From NCBI GenBank assembly GCA_016124975.1, contig WGMP01000004.1, positions 62,001-126,000 on the forward strand: 64,000 bases of DNA, in the 5' to 3' direction. Shown here piece after piece: positions 7,619 through 33,866 of the stretch; the first letter of the stretch is position 1; the number at the start of each line of letters is the position of its first letter. Source of the DNA: Phycisphaera sp. GTDB lineage: Bacteria; Planctomycetota; Phycisphaerae; Phycisphaerales; SM1A02. The translations under genes were made by a program, and so were the position numbers. A model generated the notes under the pieces. The model had not been told where the DNA came from and made no database searches. It saw nothing but the letters and a program-made list of their open reading frames with translations.

Positions 7619-8632
7619 ATGAAGCTCGTCACAGTCGCCTCCATCGGTCTTCTCGCAGCCGTCGCCTCGTTCGGCCTCGCAGCCAATGCGCCCGCCGTTC
7701 CGGAGGCCGCCAAGCCCCAGCCCGCACCCGCGCCTGCGAAGGCGCCTGTCAAGATCGGCGTGTCGATTCCCGCCGCATCGCACGGGTGGACCGCCGGCGT
7801 CGTGTGGTGGGCGAAGGAGTGCGCCAAGCTCCACCCCGAGATCGAGTGGACCATCGCGACGGCCGAGACCCCCGAGAAGCAGATCGCCGACATCGAGGCG
7901 CTCATGGCCAAGAAGGTCGACGGCCTCGTCATCCTCGCAACCGAAAGCGCGCCGATCACACCCGTTGCAGAGGAGGCGCAGGGCCGCGGCATCCTCATCG
8001 TGAACGTCGACCGCGGCTTCCTCAAGCCCGTCGCCGACATCTTCATCGAGGGCGACAACAAGGCGTTCGGCAGGAAGAGCGCCGAGTTCATGGTCGAGAA
8101 GCTCGGCGGCAAGGGGAAGGCCAAGGGCGACATCATCGTGCTCGAGGGCATTCCCTGCACGGTGAACACCGACCGCGTGAACGCGGCGATGGAGGTCTTC
8201 AAGACGGAGCCGGGCATCAAGATCGTCGGCCAGGCCGCGGGCAACTGGAACCGCCAGAAGGCGCTCGAGGTCACCGAGACGCTGCTCACGAAGAACCCGC
8301 GCGTCACCGCGATCTGGGCCTCGGACGACGACATGGCGCTCGGTGCAGAGCAGGCGCTCGCCGAAAAGGGAATCGAAGGCGTGTGGATCCTCGGCGGCGC
8401 TGGCATGAAGGACATCGTGAAGCGCGTGATGAACAAGGACCCGATGTACCCGGGCAACATCACCTACCCGCCGTCGATGATCGCGACGGGCATGGAGATG
8501 GCCGCCACGGTGCTCGTCGGCGGCAAGAAGGAGGAGAAGCTCAAGTACATGCCGCAGCACCTGATGATCGACGTCGACCTCATCACGCCGGAGAACGCGA
8601 AGCGGTACTACTTCCCGGATTCGGTGTATTGA
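7619..8632 (+). CDS. Periplasmic sugar-binding protein, RbsB family
   Basis: This is the solute-binding component of the importer, 337 aa. The N-terminus is a Sec signal peptide (MKLVTVASIGLLAAVASFGLA, cleavage likely after AANA), followed by a Pro/Ala-rich linker to about residue 40. The mature part reads as a periplasmic-binding-protein-1 fold: KIGVSIPAASHGWTAG, the ALMAKKVDGLVI segment, IVNVDRGF, and a second lobe with WASDDDMALGAEQAL. It is third in the ATPase-permease-binding-protein order. The ligand cannot be deduced by eye. Confidence 0.92.
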   Translation: MKLVTVASIGLLAAVASFGLAANAPAVPEAAKPQPAPAPAKAPVKIGVSIPAASHGWTAGVVWWAKECAKLHPEIEWTIATAETPEKQIADIEALMAKKVDGLVILATESAPITPVAEEAQGRGILIVNVDRGFLKPVADIFIEGDNKAFGRKSAEFMVEKLGGKGKAKGDIIVLEGIPCTVNTDRVNAAMEVFKTEPGIKIVGQAAGNWNRQKALEVTETLLTKNPRVTAIWASDDDMALGAEQALAEKGIEGVWILGGAGMKDIVKRVMNKDPMYPGNITYPPSMIATGMEMAATVLVGGKKEEKLKYMPQHLMIDVDLITPENAKRYYFPDSVY

Positions 8633-9009
8633 CGTGACGCGTTTCTGCAGTTCAGGTAGGTGACCCGCGGCGGCGGCTTGGGACGCCGATCGAACGTGGG
8701 AAGATCCTCTCTCCCGAAGCCTCCTCTCCCAGCCCCTCCGATTCAAGCCGCTCGACGGCGAAGACGGATGGGAAGGAGCAATGTCGCGAACCCCTCGCGG
8801 CAGGAGATCTGAGCGGTCGCGCCTGCGGGCGCTCCCTCTGGTGCTCGGGCGGGGCGAGCCCGCGGGAATTCAAACAAAAGCGCAAGTCTCGTGATTGACC
8901 ACAAGGCTGACTTCCGCTCTCATAGCGGAGGTCCGCCGCGCCCTCGCCGCGGCGGATCGATGGCGCGCCACTGTGGCGCTGTGGGGCTTGCGGCTGCGGA
9001 GATCTCGCT
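8633..9009. other. Intergenic region, 377 bp, no gene recognised
   Basis: No frame here has convincing coding character. The region holds pyrimidine-rich blocks (about 8703-8740) and a GC-rich hairpin-forming stretch near 8930-8955. The GGAG at about 8998-9001 is the likely ribosome site of the next gene. No clear promoter was seen. Confidence 0.4.
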
Positions 9010-23742: not shown

Positions 23743-24947
23743 GCGCGCCCCTTCAGCATCCCCTTCCAGTAGAGGAGCGGAAGCACATGGCGCTTCAGCA
23801 TGTACATGCTCCATCGCTCCTTGCTCTGGTCGAACGGGAAGCTCTCGCGCGGCTTCAGGTCGTAGTCGAACTCCGCGAGGATGAGCGACCCATAGCCCGT
23901 CACGAGCGGACACGAGGTGTATCCGTCGTAGCGCGCGCTCGGCTCGCGGCCCGCGAGGACATCGAGCAGGTTGGTCGCGACGGTCGGAGCCTGCTTGCGG
24001 ATCGCGGCGCCCGTCTTGCTCGTCGGAAGGTTCGAGCAGTCGCCGAGCGCGAAGACGTCGGGGTAGCGCACATGCCTGCAGGTGTGCTTGTCGACCTCGA
24101 CCCATCCCGTCGACGCGGCGAGCGGGCTCCGCTTGATGAAGTCGGGCGCCGACATCGGCGGCGTGACATGGAGGAGATCGAACTTCTGCACGACCTCCGT
24201 GTTCGCGGCAAGGTCGTCGAACACCGCCTCGCGCGCGTCGACGCGCACCTCCTTCAGGCTGTGCCTGAAGTGCGGCGGCTCGATTCCCTTGCGGCGGATC
24301 ACCTCGAGAAGCGCCTTCGCATAGGGCTCCGCCTTGAAGATCGCCGGCTCGCCCGAGTAGAAGTGGATGCGGGCGCCGTCACGCACGCCCGCGCGGCGGA
24401 AGGCGTCGTCGGCGAGGTACATGATCTTCTGCGGCGCGCCGCCGCACTTGATCGGCGTCGCGGGGTGCGTGAACACGGCGTCGCCGCCCCTGAACGAGCG
24501 GATCGCGTCCCAAGTTGAGTTCACGGTCTCGAACGAGTAGTTCGAGCAGATGCCGTTCCGTCCGATGTTCCCCTCGAGCCCCTTCACCTTGCCCCAGTCG
24601 AGCTGCAGGCCCGCGGCGACGACGAGCGCGTCGTATCTGAGCCGCGTGCCGCCAGGCGTCACGACGGCATGCGCGTCTGGGTCGAACTCTGCGACGGCCT
24701 CGCGCACCCACTCGACTCCCGCCGGAATGAGGTCCGCCTCGCGGCGTCGCGCCTTCTCGCGGGGGAGGACCCCGGCGCCGACGAGCGTCCAGAGGGGCTG
24801 GTAGTCGTGCGTCTCGCTTGGGTCGACGACGAGGATGCGAAGGCCGCCGCCGTGCCTCGCGAGCCGGGCCGCCACGGAGATTCCCGCGGAGCCGCCTCCG
24901 ACAACGACAACGGTGCGGCGGGAGGACGCTGGGTCGGTGTGCTGCAT
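23739..24947 (-). CDS. sqr: Sulfide:quinone oxidoreductase, type II (SQRDL-like)
   Basis: This membrane-associated flavoprotein oxidises sulfide to persulfide or polysulfide and passes electrons to quinone. The 402-residue sequence has the FAD-binding VVVVGGGSAGISVAARL at the N-terminus. Both redox cysteines in the contexts I recall for mitochondrial SQOR are present: C168 in TPIKCGGAPQKIMYL and C346 in YTSCPLVTGYG. The second FAD motif is FALGDCSNLPTSKTGAA, and a conserved tail FPFDQSKERWSMYMLKR follows. ATG 24947 has GGAG five bases upstream, better than the ATG at 25004. It is divergent from the persulfide dioxygenase operon and overlaps the methyltransferase downstream. Confidence 0.94.
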   Translation of the reverse strand: MQHTDPASSRRTVVVVGGGSAGISVAARLARHGGGLRILVVDPSETHDYQPLWTLVGAGVLPREKARRREADLIPAGVEWVREAVAEFDPDAHAVVTPGGTRLRYDALVVAAGLQLDWGKVKGLEGNIGRNGICSNYSFETVNSTWDAIRSFRGGDAVFTHPATPIKCGGAPQKIMYLADDAFRRAGVRDGARIHFYSGEPAIFKAEPYAKALLEVIRRKGIEPPHFRHSLKEVRVDAREAVFDDLAANTEVVQKFDLLHVTPPMSAPDFIKRSPLAASTGWVEVDKHTCRHVRYPDVFALGDCSNLPTSKTGAAIRKQAPTVATNLLDVLAGREPSARYDGYTSCPLVTGYGSLILAEFDYDLKPRESFPFDQSKERWSMYMLKRHVLPLLYWKGMLKGRA

Positions 24948-25045
24948 GGGGCTCCTCTGGCTGGGAGCGGCCTTGGAGACGACGATGGGGGAGTTGGTTC
25001 CCATTCGAGGCCCCGCGACGCGCGAATTCTGGAAGAATGTATCCG

Positions 25046-25080
25046 CGATTGGGAACCTTGGGCTCGAGCCACGGCTCCAA
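25046..25080 (+). promoter_or_regulatory. Putative ECF sigma promoter, copy 1 (persulfide dioxygenase operon)
   Basis: CGATTGGGAACC (25046-25057), 13 bp, then ACGGCTCCAA (25071-25080). The same two boxes at the same spacing lie upstream of the cytochrome bd-like operon at 31260-31294. A GGAAC-type -35 with a second box 16 bp later is typical of ECF promoters. It ends 80 bp before the ATG at 25161. Confidence 0.6.
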
Positions 25081-25160
25081 CTTCCTGCGCCATCGCTGCT
25101 CCGCAGGCGGCGCCGCGTCTTGATTTCCGATTTCTCGACCTTTCAGAAGGGAGCCCACCC

Positions 25161-26594
25161 ATGTTCCTCCGCACGATCTACGACGAGAAGCTCGCAGAGG
25201 CCGCCTATCTGGTTGGCTGCCAGCGCACAGGCGAGGCGATCGTCATCGACCCCGAGCGCGATGTCGACCGCTACGAGAAGCTCGCCGCGGCGAACGGCCT
25301 CAAGATCGTCGCGGTCGCGGAGACGCACATCCACGCGGACTTCGTCTCGGGTGGACGCGAGCTCGCCGAGAAGGGCGCCATGGTCTATGTCTCGGACGAG
25401 GGCGATGCGGACTGGAAGTACCAGTGGCTCGACAAGAAGTCGGGCGGCGGAAGCTATAGGCATCGGCTCCTGAAGGACGGCGACATCTTCATGGTCGGCA
25501 ACATCGAGTTCAAGGCGATCCACACGCCGGGCCATACGCCCGAGCATCTCTGCTTCATGGTGACCGACCGCGGCGGCGGCGCAGACAAGCCGATGGGCGT
25601 CTTCACGGGTGACTTCGTCTTCGTCGGCGACCTTGGCCGACCCGATCTCCTCGAGTCGGCCGCGGGATTCCAGGGGAAGGCCGATCCGTCGGCGCACAGG
25701 CTCTACGCGACGGTGCGCAAGTTCCTCGAGTGGCCCGACTACCTGCAGCTGTGGCCCGCGCATGGCGCGGGAAGCGCCTGCGGCAAGGCGCTCGGCGCCG
25801 TGCCCTCGACCACCGTCGGCTACGAGAAGATGTTCAACGCGTCGGTCCTCGCGGCGAAGACCGAGCAGGGCTTCGTCGACTTCATCCTCGACGCGCAGCC
25901 CGAGCCGCCGCTCTACTTCGCGCGGATGAAGCGCGACAACAAGATCGGCCCGAAGGTCCTCGGCGGAGTGCCGCAGCCGAAGCGGCTCTCGGTCGAGGAG
26001 CTCAAGAAGGTCGACGGCACGAAGGCCGCGATCGTCGACACGCGTCCGTGGGCGGCCTTCAAGGCAGGGCATGTTCCGGGGGCGCTCCATCTTCCGCTGA
26101 ACAACAGCTTCAACACCGACGGCGGATCGCTGATCGGCGAGCACGAGCCCATCGTGATCATCGCGGAGGCGTCGCGCGTCGACGAGGCCGTGCGCGACCT
26201 GATCCGCGTCGGACTCGACCATTTCGCGGGGTGGTTCGACCCCGCCGATATCGGCGCCTACCAGAGCGCGGGGGGAACGCTCGTCGGCGCCGTCGAGAAG
26301 AGCGTCGCCGAGGCGCGCACCATGATCGACGCGGCGAAGCCATTCATACTCGACGTGCGGCGCGCGTCGGAGTTCAAGGAAGGCCACATCGAGGGCGCCA
26401 CGAACATCGCGCACACGCGGCTTCTCTCGAGGCTCGCCGAGGTGCCGAAGGACCGCCACATCCTCGTGAATTGCCGCAGCGGCGCGCGCTCGGCGCGTGC
26501 GTGTTCGCTCCTTCTCAAGCATGGTTACCATTGCACGAACCTCGCGGGCGGCATGCTCGCGTGGCAGCAGGAGCGTGAACTCGTCCAGCGCTGA
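25161..26594 (+). CDS. Persulfide dioxygenase-rhodanese fusion (CstB-like)
   Basis: This 477-residue protein joins a metallo-beta-lactamase-fold persulfide dioxygenase (about 1-250) to two rhodanese domains. The iron ligands are visible: ETHIHADF (H56, H58, D60), HTPGHTPEH (H121, H125) and FTGDFVF (D151). The first rhodanese (about 285-370) has lost its cysteine. The second (about 385-475) keeps the active loop NCRSGARS, Cys about 437. Such fusions oxidise glutathione or low-molecular-weight persulfide to sulfite and transfer sulfane sulfur to make thiosulfate. AGAAGGGAG precedes the ATG. It is divergent from sqr and first in an operon with a TauE/SafE exporter and a membrane rhodanese. Confidence 0.93.
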   Translation: MFLRTIYDEKLAEAAYLVGCQRTGEAIVIDPERDVDRYEKLAAANGLKIVAVAETHIHADFVSGGRELAEKGAMVYVSDEGDADWKYQWLDKKSGGGSYRHRLLKDGDIFMVGNIEFKAIHTPGHTPEHLCFMVTDRGGGADKPMGVFTGDFVFVGDLGRPDLLESAAGFQGKADPSAHRLYATVRKFLEWPDYLQLWPAHGAGSACGKALGAVPSTTVGYEKMFNASVLAAKTEQGFVDFILDAQPEPPLYFARMKRDNKIGPKVLGGVPQPKRLSVEELKKVDGTKAAIVDTRPWAAFKAGHVPGALHLPLNNSFNTDGGSLIGEHEPIVIIAEASRVDEAVRDLIRVGLDHFAGWFDPADIGAYQSAGGTLVGAVEKSVAEARTMIDAAKPFILDVRRASEFKEGHIEGATNIAHTRLLSRLAEVPKDRHILVNCRSGARSARACSLLLKHGYHCTNLAGGMLAWQQERELVQR

Positions 26595-26624
26595 GCTGCT
26601 CCGAGTCTCCGCGAAGGAGCGGTT

Positions 26625-27599
26625 GTGATCTGGGCATGGCTTGGCGCTCTTGCGGTCGGTCTCTCGCTCGGGCTTCTTGGCTCAGGCGGAGCGATCCTGA
26701 CGACTCCGATCCTCGTCTATCTCGTCGGCCACGACGAGAAGGCCGCGATCGCGGAGTCGCTTGCGATCGTTGGGGCGATCGCGCTTGCGGGCGTCCTGCG
26801 GGCGTGGCCGCAGGGACGCGTCGACTTCCGCAGCGCGCTTCTTCTCGCGCTCCCTGGAATCGTCGGGACCTCGCTCGGCGCGCAGCTCTCTGTCTTTCTC
26901 TCGGGCGCGGTGCAGCTCGCGATGCTCGCCGTGCTCATGCTCACGGCGGCGACCCTGATGTTCCGACGCGGACGCGGGGAGCCGGCCGCGGGCGTGGAGA
27001 CTTCTGTGCGCGCGGGGCAGCCTGGGCAGGACGCCTCTGCGCTCGCATACGGCGGCCTGTCTTCCCAATGGAAGATCGTCCTTCAGGGCACGGGCCTCGG
27101 GCTTGCGACGGGACTGGTCGGGGTCGGCGGCGGGTTTCTGATCGTCCCCGTCCTCGTTCTCCTGCGCAGGCTTCCCATGCCGACGGCGATCGGCACGAGC
27201 CTCGCCATCATCGCGGTGAACAGCGCCGTCGGATTCGGGCAGTATCTCTGGCTCATTCGTGGCGCTGAGGCACCGTCGGGGACAGCGCTCAAGGTCGACT
27301 GGTTCGTGATCGGCACCTTCGTCGTGCTTGGAGTCGGCGGCAGCCTGGTCGGGAACCATCTCTCGGGTCGGCTCTACCACGGCACGCTGAAGCGCATCTT
27401 TGCTGTGTTTCTCGTGCTGATGGCGGGGTTTATCCTGGTACGGCAGGCGCCGAGGGTCTTCCCCGGCGTATTCGGGCCTTCGACGGCAAACTCAGGGGAC
27501 TCGACCGCAGCCTCGACGGGATTTGGAACCGCCGAGGGCACCCAAGCCTCTCAATCGTCGCCGCGTTCGGCTCCCGCCGCCTCAGAGGGCGGCCGCTGA
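26625..27599 (+). CDS. TauE/SafE-family membrane exporter
   Basis: This 324-residue integral membrane protein has seven or eight predicted segments. The N-terminal GLLGSGGAILTTPILVYLVG and the later repeat GLVGVGGGFLIVPVLVLLRRLPM are the duplicated TauE/SafE motif. Family members export sulfite, sulfoacetate or other small sulfur anions. Beside a persulfide dioxygenase, export of the sulfite product is the natural inference. The GTG at 26625 has AAGGAG five bases upstream, and the preceding gene ends 30 bp before. The last 50 residues form a Ser/Ala/Thr-rich cytoplasmic or periplasmic tail. Confidence 0.92.
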   Translation: MIWAWLGALAVGLSLGLLGSGGAILTTPILVYLVGHDEKAAIAESLAIVGAIALAGVLRAWPQGRVDFRSALLLALPGIVGTSLGAQLSVFLSGAVQLAMLAVLMLTAATLMFRRGRGEPAAGVETSVRAGQPGQDASALAYGGLSSQWKIVLQGTGLGLATGLVGVGGGFLIVPVLVLLRRLPMPTAIGTSLAIIAVNSAVGFGQYLWLIRGAEAPSGTALKVDWFVIGTFVVLGVGGSLVGNHLSGRLYHGTLKRIFAVFLVLMAGFILVRQAPRVFPGVFGPSTANSGDSTAASTGFGTAEGTQASQSSPRSAPAASEGGR

Positions 27600-27626
27600 A
27601 CGCACCATGTCCGAAAGGAACCCACC

Positions 27627-28235
27627 ATGCAGAACGCAGCCATCGCGGAATCCACCACGCCGAGCACATTCGCGGAGATCGCGCCGCGCGACCTCAAGGG
27701 ACGCCTCGCGAGCGGAGAACTGCTTCTCGTCGATGTGCGCGAGGCGGACGAGCACGCCCGCGAGCGCATCGCGGGGGCTCGCCTCCTGCCGCTCTCGCGC
27801 TTCAACCCGGACACGGCGGCGTCGTGGCTCGCGGCGGGTCAAGGCGTTGCGTTCCACTGCCGTGGCGGCCGTCGCTCGCTCGACGCGTGCCGCATGGCGG
27901 CGACGCTCTCGGCACGCGGAGTCGCCGTCCACAACATGACGGGCGGCATCGACGCCTGGAAGAAGGACGGCCTTCCCACCGAGGTCGACACGAAGGTGTC
28001 GGGCATCAGCATCATGCGGCAGGTGCAGCTCGTGGTCGGTGTCCTTGGGCTCGCGGGCAGCGCGCTCGCGTGGTTCGTCGATCCGCGCTTCGTCGCGATT
28101 CCTGCGTTCCTCGGCGCCGGGCTCACCTTCGCCGGCGCGACGGGCACCTGCGCGCTCGCGTCGATGCTCGGCTGGATGCCGTGGAACCGCACCGCGGGCG
28201 GAGCCAAGTCCTGCTCGACGGGAACCTGCGGCTGA
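27627..28235 (+). CDS. Membrane-anchored rhodanese (YgaP-like)
   Basis: This 202-residue protein begins with one rhodanese domain (about 15-120) carrying the active loop FHCRGGRRSLDA, whose Cys would hold persulfide sulfur. Two membrane segments follow (VQLVVGVLGLAGSALAWFV and VAIPAFLGAGLTFAGATGTCALASML), matching the rhodanese-DUF2892 layout of YgaP. The C-terminus ends in a cysteine-containing CSTGTCG. AAAGGAA precedes the ATG. It fits a role in sulfane-sulfur relay at the membrane within the sulfide operon. Confidence 0.9.
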   Translation: MQNAAIAESTTPSTFAEIAPRDLKGRLASGELLLVDVREADEHARERIAGARLLPLSRFNPDTAASWLAAGQGVAFHCRGGRRSLDACRMAATLSARGVAVHNMTGGIDAWKKDGLPTEVDTKVSGISIMRQVQLVVGVLGLAGSALAWFVDPRFVAIPAFLGAGLTFAGATGTCALASMLGWMPWNRTAGGAKSCSTGTCG

Positions 28236-28271
28236 TCGAGATCTCGCAACGCTCTCCCACGGAGATACACC

Positions 28272-28646
28272 ATGCACAAGGACGCAGCGACTTTCTACGA
28301 CGAATGGCCGAGCCGCATGAACGCGATGAAGGCCGCACCCGGCGGCGCCGACATCGGCCGCGCGTTCGGCCCGTTCTTCCAAGGGCTCATGAAGGACACC
28401 ACCGCCGAGGGCGGACTCTCGGCCAAACAGAAGGAACTCATCGCACTTGCAATCGGCGTGGCGAGCCGGTGCGAATCCTGCATCTACGCGCATGTCGAGA
28501 AGTGCCTGAAGGCGGGCGCTTCGCCGCGCGAGGTGATGGATGCAGCCGGTGTCGCGGTGATGATGGGCGGTGGCCCCGTCTACACCTATGCGACGGTCGT
28601 GTCGGAGGCGCTCGCGCAATGTGAGAAGATGGCGCAGGTTCACTGA
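28272..28646 (+). CDS. AhpD-like carboxymuconolactone decarboxylase-family protein
   Basis: This 124-residue all-helical protein contains the AhpD-type thiol motif CESCIYAHVEK (CxxC followed by His), the catalytic pair of peroxidase-linked members of the CMD family. In AhpD the two cysteines and the His reduce partner peroxiredoxins. Here the partner could be a persulfidated or peroxide-stressed thiol protein, since it is 36 bp downstream of the membrane rhodanese and probably in that operon. The start ATG at 28272 has a GGAG about 8 nt upstream. Confidence 0.88.
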   Translation: MHKDAATFYDEWPSRMNAMKAAPGGADIGRAFGPFFQGLMKDTTAEGGLSAKQKELIALAIGVASRCESCIYAHVEKCLKAGASPREVMDAAGVAVMMGGGPVYTYATVVSEALAQCEKMAQVH

Positions 28647-28679
28647 GCCACTGCGGTGTTCCCTCGAGGGTTGATGGCC

Positions 28680-30245
28680 ATGAACTTGAATCATGTGGTT
28701 TTCGCGACTTTTTCAGTCGGTTCGATGATGTTCCTCGGCTGCACCCCGCACGCCGAGAGCGAGCAGCGCGCGGTGACCGCGAACACGATCGACGAGGAGC
28801 CACCCGGCGGTTCGCGCGCGCGTGATCGCAGCGTCTGGGTTCAGCTTCTCTCCGACCACACGAAGATCAGGCGCACCGTCATCCATCGCGAGGACGGCGA
28901 TCTCGGCATCGTCGAGGCCGTCACCGAGAGCGACGACCCCGCGGTCGCCGCGCGGATCATCGACCATGCGCAGGCCATGCAGACGCGGATGAAGTCGGGC
29001 GCGCGCGTGCGCGCATGGGACCCCGTGTTTCGCGAGCTCTTCGATCGGCACGACCTCGTCGCCATCGAGGTCACGCCGACCGAGAAGGGGGTTCGCATCG
29101 TGGAGTCAAGCCGCGACCCCGAGGCGATCGCGCTGCTGCGCGCCCACGCCATCGGCGTCAGCGAGTTCGTGCGCCACGGCCATGAGGCGGGCGGGCGCGA
29201 GACGGCGCGGTTCGCTGTCGGTTCGCCGCTTCCACCGCCTGAGGTCGCGATCGGAGGCGTTCCGCATCGGTTCCTGCTCGCGCAGCCAAGCCAAGCGCAG
29301 TTGGGCGGCCTGAAGGCCGAGGGCGTTGGTCGCGTGGTCAACTTCCGACGGGCCGACGAGCCAGGCGTCTTCGACGAGGCGTCCGCCACGGCGGCGATCG
29401 GGCTCGAGTACGCGGGCATGCCCTACAAGGACGCCGCCGAGCTCACCGACGCGCTCCTTCTCGAGGCGCGCGAGGAGTTCCGCGCCGCCGCGCAGGACGG
29501 GAGCGTGCTCGCGCTCCATTGCCGCACGGGAAACCGCGTCGGCCCGGGATGGGCGATGCACCGCGCGCTCGACAAGGGCGATTCGATCGAGGACGCCATC
29601 GTTGCAGCAAAGGCCGTCGGGCTCGTCGATCCGCTCTACGAGAGCATCACGCGCGACGCGATTCGCCGCGCGAAGGCCGCCGATGGCGCGGAGCCGTTGT
29701 GGACGGAGATCGACGCACCGCGTACCGCCGCCGAGGCCGAGCAGAAGTCGCGCGCGGAGGATGCGCGCGCAGAGATGTTCAGCCGTCTCGTCGCGGCGCT
29801 TGGCGAGGCGATGTCCGCGCCGGCCGCCGATGGCACTCCGGCGGGTCCCGTCGCGGCGATTTCCGTCTGCAAGACCGAGGCGCCGCGCATCGCACAGGCT
29901 GTCGCGCGCGAGAAGGGCGTCATGATCGGCCGCACCAGCGACCGGCTGCGCAACACGGCGAACGCGGCGCCGGCGTGGGCGGTTGAGCTGCTGTCCCCGC
30001 GCCCCGAGAGCGCTCGGCTCGCTGCAAACACAGATGGCTCGCTCGGCGTCACGATGCCGATCACGATCTCGGCGCAGTGCATCGCCTGCCATGGCGCGCG
30101 CGATCGACTCGCGCCAGGCGTCGCGGAGGCGCTCGCGAAGGTCTATCCGAAGGATCAGGCCACGGGCTACGACGACGGCGACCTGCGCGGATGGTTCTGG
30201 GTGGAGGTGCCGCCGCCGACGGTCGGCGTGGCGGGCGCGCGATAG
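28680..30245 (+). CDS. Lipoprotein fusing a DUF442-like phosphatase fold to a DUF3365-type c-heme domain
   Basis: This 521-residue exported protein has four parts. A lipoprotein signal (MNLNHVVFATFSVGSMMFLGC) comes first. A helical domain (about 40-160) has HTKIRRTVIHREDG and HAIGVSEFVRHGHEAG. A DUF442/rhodanese-phosphatase-like domain (about 180-330) has the loop LHCRTGNRVGPGW (CX4R). The C-terminal domain (about 360-515) resembles DUF3365/Tll0287-like sensors and carries a c-type heme site CIACH. The combination suggests a periplasmic redox or sulfur sensor or enzyme. It follows the AhpD-like gene by 33 bp. ATG 28680 has GAGGG nine bases upstream; ATG 28674 is an alternative. Confidence 0.75.
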   Translation: MNLNHVVFATFSVGSMMFLGCTPHAESEQRAVTANTIDEEPPGGSRARDRSVWVQLLSDHTKIRRTVIHREDGDLGIVEAVTESDDPAVAARIIDHAQAMQTRMKSGARVRAWDPVFRELFDRHDLVAIEVTPTEKGVRIVESSRDPEAIALLRAHAIGVSEFVRHGHEAGGRETARFAVGSPLPPPEVAIGGVPHRFLLAQPSQAQLGGLKAEGVGRVVNFRRADEPGVFDEASATAAIGLEYAGMPYKDAAELTDALLLEAREEFRAAAQDGSVLALHCRTGNRVGPGWAMHRALDKGDSIEDAIVAAKAVGLVDPLYESITRDAIRRAKAADGAEPLWTEIDAPRTAAEAEQKSRAEDARAEMFSRLVAALGEAMSAPAADGTPAGPVAAISVCKTEAPRIAQAVAREKGVMIGRTSDRLRNTANAAPAWAVELLSPRPESARLAANTDGSLGVTMPITISAQCIACHGARDRLAPGVAEALAKVYPKDQATGYDDGDLRGWFWVEVPPPTVGVAGAR

Positions 30246-30271: not shown

Positions 30272-31192
30272 TCACGCGCGCGCCGTCTGGCGACGCACGG
30301 GCTTTCGTCCTCTGCGCGGCTTCAACTCGGTCGCGCGCTCGGCGTCCTCCCGCGCAGCGAGCGCCGCGAGGATCTTCCGCCGAAGTGGGCTCGGCATCGA
30401 GCCGTCGCCGAGCTGCGCGCACGCATCCTGCACGAGGTCGAGCTCGCGGAAGACGGCGCGGCAGCGCGCGCAGACCTCTGCCTGCGGCACCGCGAATCCG
30501 TGCGCGACGCCGCCGCGGTCCATCGCCTCGAGCTTCGCCTTGAGGAGATCGAGGCAGACCTGCTTCTCGAAGATCGGCATCGGCGCCTTGACGAGCGGGC
30601 TGCGCGCCGTCATCGCCTTGCGCAGCGCGAGCCGCGCGCGATGGAGGCGCGTCTTCACGGTGTTCTCCGCAAGGCCGAGCGCGGTCGCGGTGTCCTCGAC
30701 CGAAAGCTCGAGCACCTCCTTGAGCACGATGGGCATCCGCAGGTGCTCGGGAAGCCGCGCGATCTCCGCTTGGACGCGCGCGACCGCCTCGTTCCGCTGC
30801 GACCGATGCGCCGTGTCGTCGGGCGCGACGGCGACCTCCATGACCTTCGTCTCCGACCATGGCATCAGCTGCGAGAGCGCGGGCATGCGGCGGTCGATGC
30901 CGCCCTTGCGCCGCGTGCGCGACTTGCAGGCCCGCACCGCGATCGCGTAGAGCCAGGTCGCGGGGTCGGCGTCGCCGCGGAAGAGATGCCACTTGCGATA
31001 GGCCTGGAGGAAGACCTCCTGGACGGCATCGTCGGCGTCCGCGAGGTTCCCGCACATCCGCCGTGCGAGGGCGTGGATGCGGCCTCCCGCGCGCTCAACG
31101 AGCGCTGGAATCGCCTCGGAAGCCGGTGTGGCCGCCGTGAGCGCCGAGTCGTCCGCTGCACGGGAGACCCTCTGGTTCGGTGCGTCGAACAT
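30272..31192 (-). CDS. ECF sigma factor with C-terminal Cys/His domain
   Basis: This 306-residue group 4 sigma factor has region 2 at about 37-96 (DADDAVQEVFLQAYRKWHLF) and region 4 at about 145-195 (LPEHLRMPIVLKEV then VEDTATALGLAENTVKTRLHRARLALRK). It has an extra domain (about 200-306) with C213, H231, C241-x2-C244 and C258. That pattern recalls zinc-binding anti-sigma domains. No separate anti-sigma gene adjoins, so the extension may provide control, possibly by thiol or persulfide chemistry. It is divergent from the CydA-like gene, whose upstream region has an ECF-like element. The start has TACGAT nine bases upstream. Confidence 0.9.
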   Translation of the reverse strand: MFDAPNQRVSRAADDSALTAATPASEAIPALVERAGGRIHALARRMCGNLADADDAVQEVFLQAYRKWHLFRGDADPATWLYAIAVRACKSRTRRKGGIDRRMPALSQLMPWSETKVMEVAVAPDDTAHRSQRNEAVARVQAEIARLPEHLRMPIVLKEVLELSVEDTATALGLAENTVKTRLHRARLALRKAMTARSPLVKAPMPIFEKQVCLDLLKAKLEAMDRGGVAHGFAVPQAEVCARCRAVFRELDLVQDACAQLGDGSMPSPLRRKILAALAAREDAERATELKPRRGRKPVRRQTARA

Positions 31193-31344: not shown

Positions 31345-32775
31345 ATGGTCGAGCCCAGCGTCTTCTATCCCGTCAACGACTTCGGCCCCGCCATGAAGGG
31401 GCTCGTGATCGGCGGGCTTGGCATCTTCCATGTCTTCCTCGCCCAGTTCGCGATCGGCGGGGGCATGCTCATGGCCTACTACCAGTGGCTTGCCATGCGC
31501 GGCAAGCTCCCCGAGGCGCGGCAGGTTCTCGACTCCTACTTCCGCTATCTCGTGCTCGTGTCGTTCGTCATCGGCGCCCTCACAGGCGTCGGAATGTGGT
31601 TCACGAGCATCCAGATCTCACCCGCCACGATCGGAAAGATGGTCGACACGTTCCACTGGGTCTGGGCGACCGAGTGGATCTTCTTCTGGGTCGAGGTCGT
31701 CGCGGGATACGCGTTCTATCGGTACGGGAAGATCCTCTCCGACCGCGCGAGGCTGACGCTGCTTCTCATCTACAGCGTGGCGGGTTTCGGCTCGCTGTTC
31801 TGGATCAACGGCATCCTCTCGTGGCAACTTACACCCGGTGAGTGGGTCGAGACCGGCAACATCTGGGCGGGCTTCTTCAACGCGACCTTCTGGCCGAGCC
31901 TCTTCTATCGCACAGCCGCAGCGATGGTGATCGCGGGGCTCGTGGCGGCGGTGGTCGTCAACACCATGTCCGACGTCACGCGCGAGCAGCGGACTGCGCT
32001 GATCAACGCGACTGCGAGGTTCATGCTCGGCGTCGTCGCCATGCCTGTGCTCGGCATCTGGTTTCTCCTCGCCATGCCCGCGGACTCGCGCGAGTGGGTG
32101 CTCGGTGGCAGCATCGCCATGACGCTCTTCCTGAACGCCGCGGTCGGGGCGAGCGTCCTGATCGGCGGATACGCGGTCGTCGGGCTCTGGCGGCAGAAGC
32201 TCTACATCAACGGCGCGACCGCCACGCTCCTTCTCGCGCTCGCGTTCGGGGCGACGGCAGGGGGCGAGTTCGTCCGCGAGGGCGTGCGCAAGCCGTACAC
32301 GATTCGCGATGTCCTGTTCAGCAACGCCGTGACCCCCGGGCAGGTCGCACATCTTCGCGAGGTCGGATGCACGACCGATGATCCGTTCCCGCTCCGCGAC
32401 GCCGATCGATATGCGAACGACCAGCTTCGGACGGGTGCGCTCGTCTTCCGAAGCCAATGCGCGGTGTGCCACACGGTGAGCGGCGTGAACGGCCTGACCC
32501 ACCTCATGGGCGCATGGTCGGTCGACCAACAGCGCATGAACGTCGCGAAGCTGCAGCTCACGAAGGGATTCATGCCGCCGTTCGCGGGAACCCCCGCGGA
32601 ACTCGAGGCGCTTGTGCAGTTCGTCCGTTGGGAAGCGGCGGACCATCCAACCGCGTGGGCGGAGAGCGGGGACGCCGCGACCTTCGCGGAGATCAAGGAG
32701 TGGCTCGACGAGGCGGGCACGGAGCCCGCGCCGATCGCGCGCCGCGACCGAAGTTCGAACGGAGGCGCGGAGTGA
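31345..32775 (+). CDS. Cytochrome bd-type oxidase CydA-like subunit fused to cytochrome c
   Basis: This 476-residue membrane protein has the CydA layout: a conserved N-terminal His in GIFHVFLAQFAIGGGM (H29), Glu residues in a later helix (WATEWIFFWVE, E110 and E117), and FVREGVRKPYTIRDVL, which aligns with the GRQPW region of quinol-oxidising CydA but has VRKPY instead. After the last membrane segment comes a cytochrome c domain (about 360-440) with C372-AV-C375-H376 and a GFMPPF Met ligand. A c-heme and altered quinol motif suggest electrons may come from a cytochrome rather than quinol. The next gene overlaps by 4 bp. Confidence 0.85.
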   Translation: MVEPSVFYPVNDFGPAMKGLVIGGLGIFHVFLAQFAIGGGMLMAYYQWLAMRGKLPEARQVLDSYFRYLVLVSFVIGALTGVGMWFTSIQISPATIGKMVDTFHWVWATEWIFFWVEVVAGYAFYRYGKILSDRARLTLLLIYSVAGFGSLFWINGILSWQLTPGEWVETGNIWAGFFNATFWPSLFYRTAAAMVIAGLVAAVVVNTMSDVTREQRTALINATARFMLGVVAMPVLGIWFLLAMPADSREWVLGGSIAMTLFLNAAVGASVLIGGYAVVGLWRQKLYINGATATLLLALAFGATAGGEFVREGVRKPYTIRDVLFSNAVTPGQVAHLREVGCTTDDPFPLRDADRYANDQLRTGALVFRSQCAVCHTVSGVNGLTHLMGAWSVDQQRMNVAKLQLTKGFMPPFAGTPAELEALVQFVRWEAADHPTAWAESGDAATFAEIKEWLDEAGTEPAPIARRDRSSNGGAE

Positions 32776-33866
32776 CGGTGTTTCCCTTCGAGCTTCCTCT
32801 TCCGACGATGTGGTATGTCGTCCTCCTGCTTGTGACGATGCTCCTGCATGTCGCGTTCATGGCCTATGTCCTGGCCGGCTCGATGATGCTCGGGATCGCG
32901 GGCTTCCGCGGCATGCTGGGACGCGTCCCGAGGGACTCGGCGTGGCAGGCCGTGACGAGGGTCCTGAAGGACTGGATGCCCTTCGCGCTCTCCGCGGCGA
33001 TCACAGCAGGCATCGCTCCGCTCCTCTTCGTGCAGATCCTCTACCAGCAGGAGTTCTACACGGCGAATCTTCTCTCGTTCCATCGCTGGATGGCGATCGT
33101 GCCCGTCCTGATCGTCGCCTTCTACCTGCTCTATCTCCTGAAGGCACATCGGATCGAGGGAAGGCTCGCGCTGCAGGGCGCCGTCGCCATGGTCGTGATG
33201 GCATGCGTGCTCTTCGTCGGTTGGTCGTGGATCGAGAACCATCTGCTGTCGCTCGATCGCGACGCGTGGCCCGAGCAGTACCGCACGGGAGCGATGGTCT
33301 ATGCGTCGCCCGCCATCGCGCCGAGGCTTGGATTCTGGATCGTGTCGGGCTTTGCGACTGCGAGCGCGCTCCTTGCTTGGCAGCTGTCGCTCGCGGCATC
33401 GGGAGTGGCAGCAGAAGTCGCTGCGCGCGCGATCCGCATGCTCGCGATCGTGGGGGTCGTCGCGACGCCTGCCGCTGGACTCATCGCGCTTCCCGCGCTC
33501 GGCTTCTGGTCGGCGGACGAGGGGCTCCGCAGCGGAACGGCGCATCTGATGGTCGCGGCCGGAGCGGGTGCCGTGGTGGCCGCCGCGGGCTTCGCGCTCG
33601 TGCTGCGCCGGTCGTCGGCGCCCCGCGCGGGACTTGTCGTGGCGAGTGCGGGGCTCACGCTGATGTGGCTCGGGCTTCTCGCCGCGCGGGAGTTCCTTCG
33701 CCTTGAGTCGATTGGTCTCGAGTCGTTGTCGGCACGGCACGAGCGCGTCGGAACGCTCTCAGGCCTGATCGTCTTTCTCGTCTTCGCCGTGATCGGCCTC
33801 GCGTCGATCGCATGGATCGTGCGAACGGTGCATCGCGCGCAGCACGGACTCGGCGACCCGAAGTGA
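32772..33866 (+). CDS. Second subunit of the bd-type oxidase, CydA-prime-like membrane protein
   Basis: This 364-residue protein has about nine membrane segments. It starts at the GTG overlapping the CydA-like stop (GTGA), with GGAGG six bases upstream, so the pair is translationally coupled. Its first helix, VTMLLHVAFMAYVLAGSMMLGIAG, resembles the heme-ligating first helix of its partner (FHVFLAQFAIGGGM) and keeps the His. It may therefore be a CydA paralogue, as in CydAA'-type oxidases, rather than a classical CydB. A QQEFYTANLLSFHRWM segment follows helix 3. No CydX or CydCD genes are present. Confidence 0.72.
   Translation: MTVFPFELPLPTMWYVVLLLVTMLLHVAFMAYVLAGSMMLGIAGFRGMLGRVPRDSAWQAVTRVLKDWMPFALSAAITAGIAPLLFVQILYQQEFYTANLLSFHRWMAIVPVLIVAFYLLYLLKAHRIEGRLALQGAVAMVVMACVLFVGWSWIENHLLSLDRDAWPEQYRTGAMVYASPAIAPRLGFWIVSGFATASALLAWQLSLAASGVAAEVAARAIRMLAIVGVVATPAAGLIALPALGFWSADEGLRSGTAHLMVAAGAGAVVAAAGFALVLRRSSAPRAGLVVASAGLTLMWLGLLAAREFLRLESIGLESLSARHERVGTLSGLIVFLVFAVIGLASIAWIVRTVHRAQHGLGDPK

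Follow-up and report, generated by a model that had tools for sequence, protein, structure and literature searches.

Copper-free oxidases of the bd type are known as enzymes that oxidise quinol. Murali, Gennis and Hemp (ISME J 2021) are said to have split the bd superfamily into the families qOR, OR-C and OR-N, with OR-C reportedly marked by a cytochrome c domain and the lack of a quinol site; the same 2021 study reportedly also covers the archaeal CydAA' enzymes, in which two CydA-family paralogues form a quinol oxidase lacking a cytochrome c domain. Here we analyse a gene pair at positions 31345 to 33866 of a 64,000-nucleotide stretch of DNA (hereafter the window) from the planctomycete Phycisphaera sp. 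(assembly GCA_016124975.1, contig WGMP01000004.1, positions 62,001 to 126,000 of the forward strand), which, by the features testable here and with the OR-C marks as reported, most likely encodes a bd-type oxidase that belongs to the OR-C kind and is fed by cytochrome c. The OR-C family name also occurs in excerpts of PMC13189123, PMC10839748 and PMC11707229, and excerpts of PMC10839748 and PMC12342949 present the OR-N proteins as Nitrospirota/Nitrospinota pairs of OR-N1 with OR-N2 that are thought to use cytochrome c. In the literature searched, outside which subscription papers lay, we recognised neither an activity nor a second subunit of an OR-C enzyme, and we claim no absence in print.

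The source genome (3.6 Mb in 59 contigs, 97.6% complete) carries the pair on the forward strand, to which all coordinates given below for the two subunits refer. Open reading frames and profile comparison delineate subunit I (31345..32775, ATG start) as a CydA-family protein of 476 amino acids with a C-terminal c-type cytochrome, and subunit II (32772..33866, GTG start) as a predicted CydA paralogue of 364 amino acids with nine hydropathy-predicted membrane helices. An earlier note on this DNA had read a bd-type gene pair here, and the two frames, which overlap by 4 bases, are present together with the VRKPY and CAVCH motifs and the His26 that it named. Pfam detects only cytochrome c families in subunit I of the window and gives one sub-threshold match for its subunit II. 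Two named relatives of subunit I, from Phycisphaerales/Phycisphaerae metagenome-assembled genomes, are 79% identical to it, and relatives on plasmids of Thermus thermophilus, Agrobacterium tumefaciens and Methylosinus (four records retrieved with subunit I queries, one with subunit II) carry annotations such as 'cytochrome c', 'c-type cytochrome' or 'hypothetical'. Subunit I matches are sporadically distributed, occurring in 29 of 294 planctomycete genomes (two later set aside as non-members), and a search of phages with the Methylosinus subunit I gave no match. Of 41 members, counting the window, 40 have subunit II as well as subunit I; in 39 of them the two genes adjoin, the profile matches being separated by -7 to 242 bases. 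In the fortieth pair, from genome G061 (L018/L082), two genes intervene, and for one locus (L021) no subunit II was found. Recurrence of the matches in 29 genomes, together with a CxxCH motif whose two cysteines and histidine are each present in 41 of 41 aligned members, indicates that the pair is not a chance reading.

Profile comparison identifies subunit I as a CydA relative of the bd superfamily, as the earlier note had read from its CydA features. The profile was built from 33 members, namely 2 named relatives, 3 sequences from plasmids, with one of the two Thermus plasmids included, and 28 from the planctomycete genome search, in which 31 rows had been reduced by excluding L030 (a CydA beside a CydB), L031 (confined to the cytochrome c part) and a further row from a frame already counted. 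Against 19 canonical CydA proteins it reached 99.1% probability in hhalign (E 7.6e-19, 308 columns aligned); the bd oxidase subunit I 5doq_A was matched in a PDB profile search (E 2.2e-14), and 10 of the 33 members match the Pfam family Cyt_bd_oxida_I at E 0.01. Eight new loci were added to the member set by a later search, and residues were counted in 41 aligned subunit I members, including that of the window, mapped on Escherichia coli CydA; the CydA loci L039 and L042 were left out by a motif filter and the CydB rows L037 and L043 were left out of one set. The residues of the oxygen site are kept: His29 (31429..31431) corresponds to the heme d ligand His19 and is present in all 39 members whose sequence covers that column (the other 2 of the 41 being truncated), Glu110 (31672..31674) to Glu99 (40/41), Glu117 (31693..31695) to Glu107 of the proton path (39/41), and the segment E312-G-V-R315 (32278..32289) contains the equivalents of the heme b595 ligand Glu445 (41/41) and of Arg448 (40/41), the ligand roles being those given for CydA in an excerpt of PMC8324918. 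Glu110 and Glu117 are spaced by 7 in 33 of 33 members, one less than in E. coli, a spacing that resembles helix 3 of the Geobacillus bd enzyme, which lacks an inserted Leu according to part of PMC8951039.

The quinol-handling parts of CydA, by contrast with this oxygen site, are missing from subunit I. The columns of the heme b558 ligands His186 and Met393 hold mostly Phe/Tyr and Leu/Ile, respectively (Met in 3/41 at the latter), and the loop between helices 6 and 7, where CydA has its Q-loop, is about 11 residues long and lacks the Q-loop with Lys252 and Glu257. Thus none of the marks of canonical CydAB (qOR), i.e. His186, Met393 and the Q-loop, is found in subunit I, and the intact quinol-site residues that the earlier note had named as evidence against its reading are absent from the alignment. 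The Trp lying between hemes b558 and b595, which is Trp394 in the mycobacterial enzyme as described in an excerpt of PMC8324918 and corresponds by our alignment mapping to E. coli Trp441, is replaced by Glu308, with Glu in 40 of the 41 members. The earlier note had further taken VRKPY as replacing GRQPW, the quinol-loop motif; VRKPY is indeed there (residues 314-318), but this block belongs to the heme b595 region rather than the Q-loop, and its Glu and Arg (E. coli E445 and R448) are kept in subunit I.

Subunit I has gained a cytochrome c of its own. The C-terminal CAVCH recognised in the earlier note, at residues 372-376 (32458..32472), is a heme c attachment site of the kind seen in every aligned member; Met410 (32572..32574), the probable distal heme c ligand, is likewise present in 41 of 41, and PF13442 is matched by 33 of 33 members. 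Eight helices are predicted in subunit I from hydropathy, and, with helix ends set by hand, the loops contain 1, 3, 1, 3, 0, 2, 1 and 2 Lys/Arg residues from the N-terminus; this helix count and loop pattern therefore place the C-terminal cytochrome c, by prediction, in the periplasm. Two CxxCH motifs occur in subunit I of L019 and L020, and in 5 of 27 cases (L026, L027, L028, L029 and L032) Pfam finds heme c motifs also at the end of subunit II. Since the quinol parts are lost and a cytochrome c is gained, the electrons probably come from cytochrome c, and we consider it probable that the pair constitutes a two-subunit terminal oxidase of the bd superfamily fed from the cytochrome c pool and not by quinol. 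The pair might alternatively still oxidise quinol at a new site, with the cytochrome c as an added or regulatory point of electron entry; such a site has been raised, in part of PMC3578206, as a possibility for the Q-loop-less bd-like proteins of Nitrospina, whose role it would change. With the Q-loop and both b558 ligands missing and a heme c motif in all members we regard this as highly improbable, and a quinol site would be superfluous in a relative that encodes a Rieske protein and a cytochrome b beside the pair.

This relative, the distant planctomycete G061, provides the best evidence on the donor. On one strand of its contig (L082, G061:C28, 8146-12265) the order of genes is subunit II, Rieske protein (PF00355), cytochrome b (PF00033, PF00032) and subunit I, without a separate cytochrome c gene among the four. 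Because the Rieske and cytochrome b genes lie between those of the two subunits, the row suggests a bc complex as the electron source, with electrons passing from quinol through the bc complex to heme c. In a second distant relative, G290, subunit I is directly preceded by the end of a cytochrome b (PF00032). A tblastn search with the G061 cytochrome b and Rieske sequences against the other loci collected up to then, many of which reach only 1.5 kb beyond the gene, recovered no further genome. In the source genome itself neither canonical cydA or cydB nor cytochrome b (PF00033) was matched; it encodes two heme-copper oxidase subunits I, one with a fused heme c motif, and a single NrfD-type gene situated some 6 kb from one of the two, which suggests an alternative complex III feeding a cytochrome c pool. 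The heme-copper oxidases and the NrfD-type gene, in the absence of matches to canonical cydA and cydB, make respiration through cytochrome c likely in this organism.

The mechanism that we propose builds on the observed sequence anatomy, conservation, pairing and gene context, from which activity, electron path, heme content and topology are deduced. The periplasmic heme c of subunit I would be reduced by an external donor; this would be a cytochrome c in soluble form or, for certain relatives, perhaps the Rieske/cytochrome b of a bc complex acting directly. From this heme c electrons would pass to a two-heme oxygen site at the b595 and d positions of the same subunit, heme c thereby replacing the lost heme b558, and oxygen would be reduced with cytoplasmic protons that travel by way of the retained Glu107/Glu99-like path. 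Given such a path from the cytoplasm, turnover is expected to be electrogenic although no protons would be pumped. Subunit II would stand in structurally for CydB and may carry a heme where the CydB of E. coli holds a quinone.

The main role of the pair could also lie outside oxygen respiration, in reducing or scavenging another oxidant such as nitric oxide (NO) or peroxide, or in redox sensing. Its sporadic distribution and its occurrence alongside two heme-copper oxidases in the source genome would fit such a role, as would two plasmid relatives that are encoded beside an ATP-binding protein (probably a histidine kinase) and a response regulator; canonical bd oxidases, too, are linked with NO and O2 detoxification in an excerpt of PMC10839748. 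However, nearly every member retains the canonical oxygen-site residues and the Glu107 proton path, and a distant relative places the pair in one row with Rieske and cytochrome b genes, so that we judge a role of this sort decidedly unlikely and prefer a terminal oxidase fed by cytochrome c.

Several points weigh against this preferred interpretation. The sequence does not distinguish between heme d and heme b alone at the oxygen site. The subunit I of the window lacks a match to Cyt_bd_oxida_I even at E 1. The full conservation of CxxCH is in part a matter of selection, since the queries of the member search included the cytochrome c. A bc-complex context is seen in only 2 of the 41 members, both of them distant, and the window's own neighbouring genes indicate no donor. 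Finally, AlphaFold, run with three sequences, gave a mean pLDDT (predicted local distance difference test) of only 45 for subunit I and 55 for subunit II, and with such poor values the models cannot test heme geometry.

The second subunit had been suggested in the earlier note to be a CydA paralogue rather than CydB. We compared profiles of 38 CydA, 36 CydB, 41 subunit I, 39 subunit II and 9 OR-N-like proteins in hhalign, with 15 shuffles per pair. Subunit II scored 97.3% against subunit I (E 1.7e-11), 94.8% against OR-N and 92.2% against CydA (E 5.8e-7), versus 24.3% against CydB (E 8e-4), while the shuffles of these four pairs reached at most 2.9%. Among CydA, OR-N and subunit I the real pairs gave 98.9-99.0% (subunit I against OR-N 98.9%) and the shuffles 23-40%. 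A smaller test agreed in order, with subunit II at 63-94% against CydA and 11-20% against CydB; in it a single shuffle of subunit II against subunit I attained 27.8% (real 98.4%) and another against OR-N 13.4% (real 93.7%). The case for this kinship rests on the distant members, since the 14 close-group members by themselves give 1-3% against CydA, CydB or subunit I, a likeness too low to detect. Pfam CydB (PF02322) was matched by none of 27 subunit II members at E 0.1, and Pfam CydA by one (E 0.019). The sole PDB profile hit of subunit II, the lysosomal protein LMBD1 (E 1.8e-4), was taken as a chance match of membrane helices. These profile comparisons identify subunit II as a CydA paralogue with only a weak likeness to CydB, as the note had supposed, and the pair accordingly appears to have the CydAA'-type architecture of two CydA-family subunits without a CydB.

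If subunit II were instead a very divergent CydB, the pair would be a standard CydAB to which a cytochrome c had been appended. Some evidence does point that way. The score of subunit II against CydB exceeds that of all 15 shuffles; in a tree into which 13 CydB rows were forced these joined the branch of subunit II; and in a Foldseek search with the poor subunit II model the five best hits were all CydB chains (E 0.32-0.89), none of them significant at 0.001. The join, however, has a support of only 59 and carries a long-branch warning, Pfam CydB finds none of 27 members at E 0.1, and by profile subunit II is far more similar to subunit I, CydA and OR-N than to CydB. Furthermore, the helix-1 His is kept in 39 of 39 subunit II members, whereas the His19 column of the 13 forced CydB rows contains 12 Tyr and one Phe. 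A CydB in disguise therefore seems to us quite improbable, and we continue to treat subunit II as a CydA paralogue. Superposition of the same poor model with VIA-align picked CydA as the best chain of two bd entries (7d5i_A, Z 11.1, 132 residues aligned, 3.0 Å; 7ose_A, Z 10.1, 203 aligned, 6.0 Å); unrelated rows reached up to Z 12.8, so that these CydA scores fall below a meaningful level for helical bundles.

To place the two subunits phylogenetically, we constructed a tree of 86 core sequences, leaving out two N-truncated subunit I rows. Each group occupied one side of a branch, with Shimodaira-Hasegawa-like approximate likelihood ratio (SH-aLRT) support of 100 for subunit II, 99 for CydA, 99 for OR-N, 90 for subunit I and 84 for subunits I and II together. 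Subunits I and II show similar subgroups, as expected if they were co-inherited, the congruence being judged by eye. Constraining subunit I or subunit II to join OR-N cost only 0.4 or 0 log units (approximately unbiased test, p-AU 0.475 and 0.489); the branching among subunit I, subunit II, OR-N and CydA is hence not settled, and we make no claim of a duplication within this family. The phylogeny proposed in the earlier note thus yielded no clear grouping of subunit II with CydB, but left the deep order unsettled, with forced CydB joining subunit II at a support of 59.

Subunit II retains several residues that could bind heme. His26 in helix 1 (32847..32849), whose retention the earlier note had remarked upon, aligns with His19 of E. 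coli CydA; His157 (33240..33242), in the column of Asn148, is found in all 14 close-group members and in 19 of 39 overall. The motif R306-E307-x-x-R310 (33687..33701) aligns with R311-E312-x-x-R315 of subunit I; its residue 307, at the place of Glu445, is Glu in 25, His in 7, Gln in 5 and Asp in 2 members, with R306 kept in 38/39 and R310 in 37/39. The Glu99 and Glu107 columns, on the other hand, are occupied in all 27 members counted by residues that are small or hydrophobic, and the His186 column holds His in 8 of 27. According to a figure legend of PMC8951039, a quinone in the CydB of E. coli occupies the place of the CydA hemes; this position, together with the kept His and Glu, suggests that subunit II could hold a heme there, and the complex may thus contain an extra heme. 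Of the four CydA-superfamily profiles tested subunit II is also the most CydB-like, the values for CydA, subunit I and OR-N against CydB being 2.9%, 9.8% and 0.5%, which raises the possibility of an intermediate in the origin of CydB. The full proposal, that subunit II bears a heme ligated by His26 with Glu/His/Gln307, and in the close group also by His157, and is a surviving intermediate toward the heme-free CydB, is in our estimate unlikely.

Upstream of the pair in the window lie genes for a metallo-β-lactamase (MBL)-rhodanese, a TauE-type exporter, a YgaP-like rhodanese and an AhpD-like (CMD) protein (24669-28646, forward strand), likely a sulfur/persulfide module; then one for a 529-amino-acid protein (28656-30245) whose C-terminal domain is Tll0287-like (PF11845) and whose N-terminal half resembles a phosphatase on visual inspection; and, divergent from the oxidase pair, a sigma-70 family gene of ECF-like type (30272-31192, reverse strand). 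Across 16 close-group loci of up to 24 kb each no gene was common to at least three at the thresholds used, apart from subunits I and II and their shadow frames, for which reason a link with sulfur metabolism through the upstream MBL-rhodanese, TauE and rhodanese genes was dropped. On a plasmid of Methylosinus sp. C49 (L055, 5944-13104) genes for a small c-type cytochrome, an ATP-binding protein (probably a histidine kinase) and a response regulator come after the pair, with the methanobactin gene mbnF farther on; this context would fit a copper-free cytochrome c oxidase that serves when copper is scarce. On a plasmid of Agrobacterium tumefaciens LN-1 (L054, 5956-10500) the pair is followed by a short hypothetical gene (8516-8692), an ATP-binding protein and a response regulator, the latter two resembling their Methylosinus counterparts in BLAST clustering.

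In this family a bd-type enzyme probably receives its electrons from cytochrome c, and a gene row that links it to a bc complex suggests what the donor may be. The family makes testable both the donor of the non-quinol bd families and the origin of the CydA/CydB architecture from a duplication of CydA; if the reading of subunit II given above were true, the enzyme would be an oxidase with a heme-bearing second half, a relic of the origin of CydB. What is added here are the heme-ligand residues kept in subunit II and the bc-complex operon, along with faint indications of a position of subunit II between CydA and CydB.

Compared with the described systems, the window pair shares with canonical CydAB the four-helix core and the CydA oxygen-site residues, but lacks the Q-loop, the b558 ligands and CydB, and has an added heme c. 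With the archaeal CydAA' enzymes, as reported, it shares the use of two CydA-family paralogues in place of CydA and CydB, whereas those enzymes reportedly oxidise quinol and have no cytochrome c domain. OR-N pairs are likewise thought to comprise two CydA relatives and to use cytochrome c instead of quinol, and the OR-N-like profile is close to both subunits (98.9% for subunit I, 94.8% for subunit II). The nine OR-N-like proteins compared (L056-L064, from planctomycetes) were named by likeness and not by a published profile; they differ in lacking CxxCH, in their long open frames of 608-1057 codons, and in having Tyr at the Glu99 column (9/9) and His at the His186 column (6/9), with the helix-1 His kept (9/9). 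They form their own group (support 99) apart from subunit I, which, bearing heme c, is not placed within OR-N. The closest correspondence is with OR-C, whose family mark, as reportedly defined, recurs here in a CydA-related subunit with a C-terminal cytochrome c and no quinol site. Beyond these OR-C marks, the window pair has a CydA-paralogue partner with a kept His and, usually, R-E-x-x-R, and the G061 relative has Rieske and cytochrome b genes between its two subunits.

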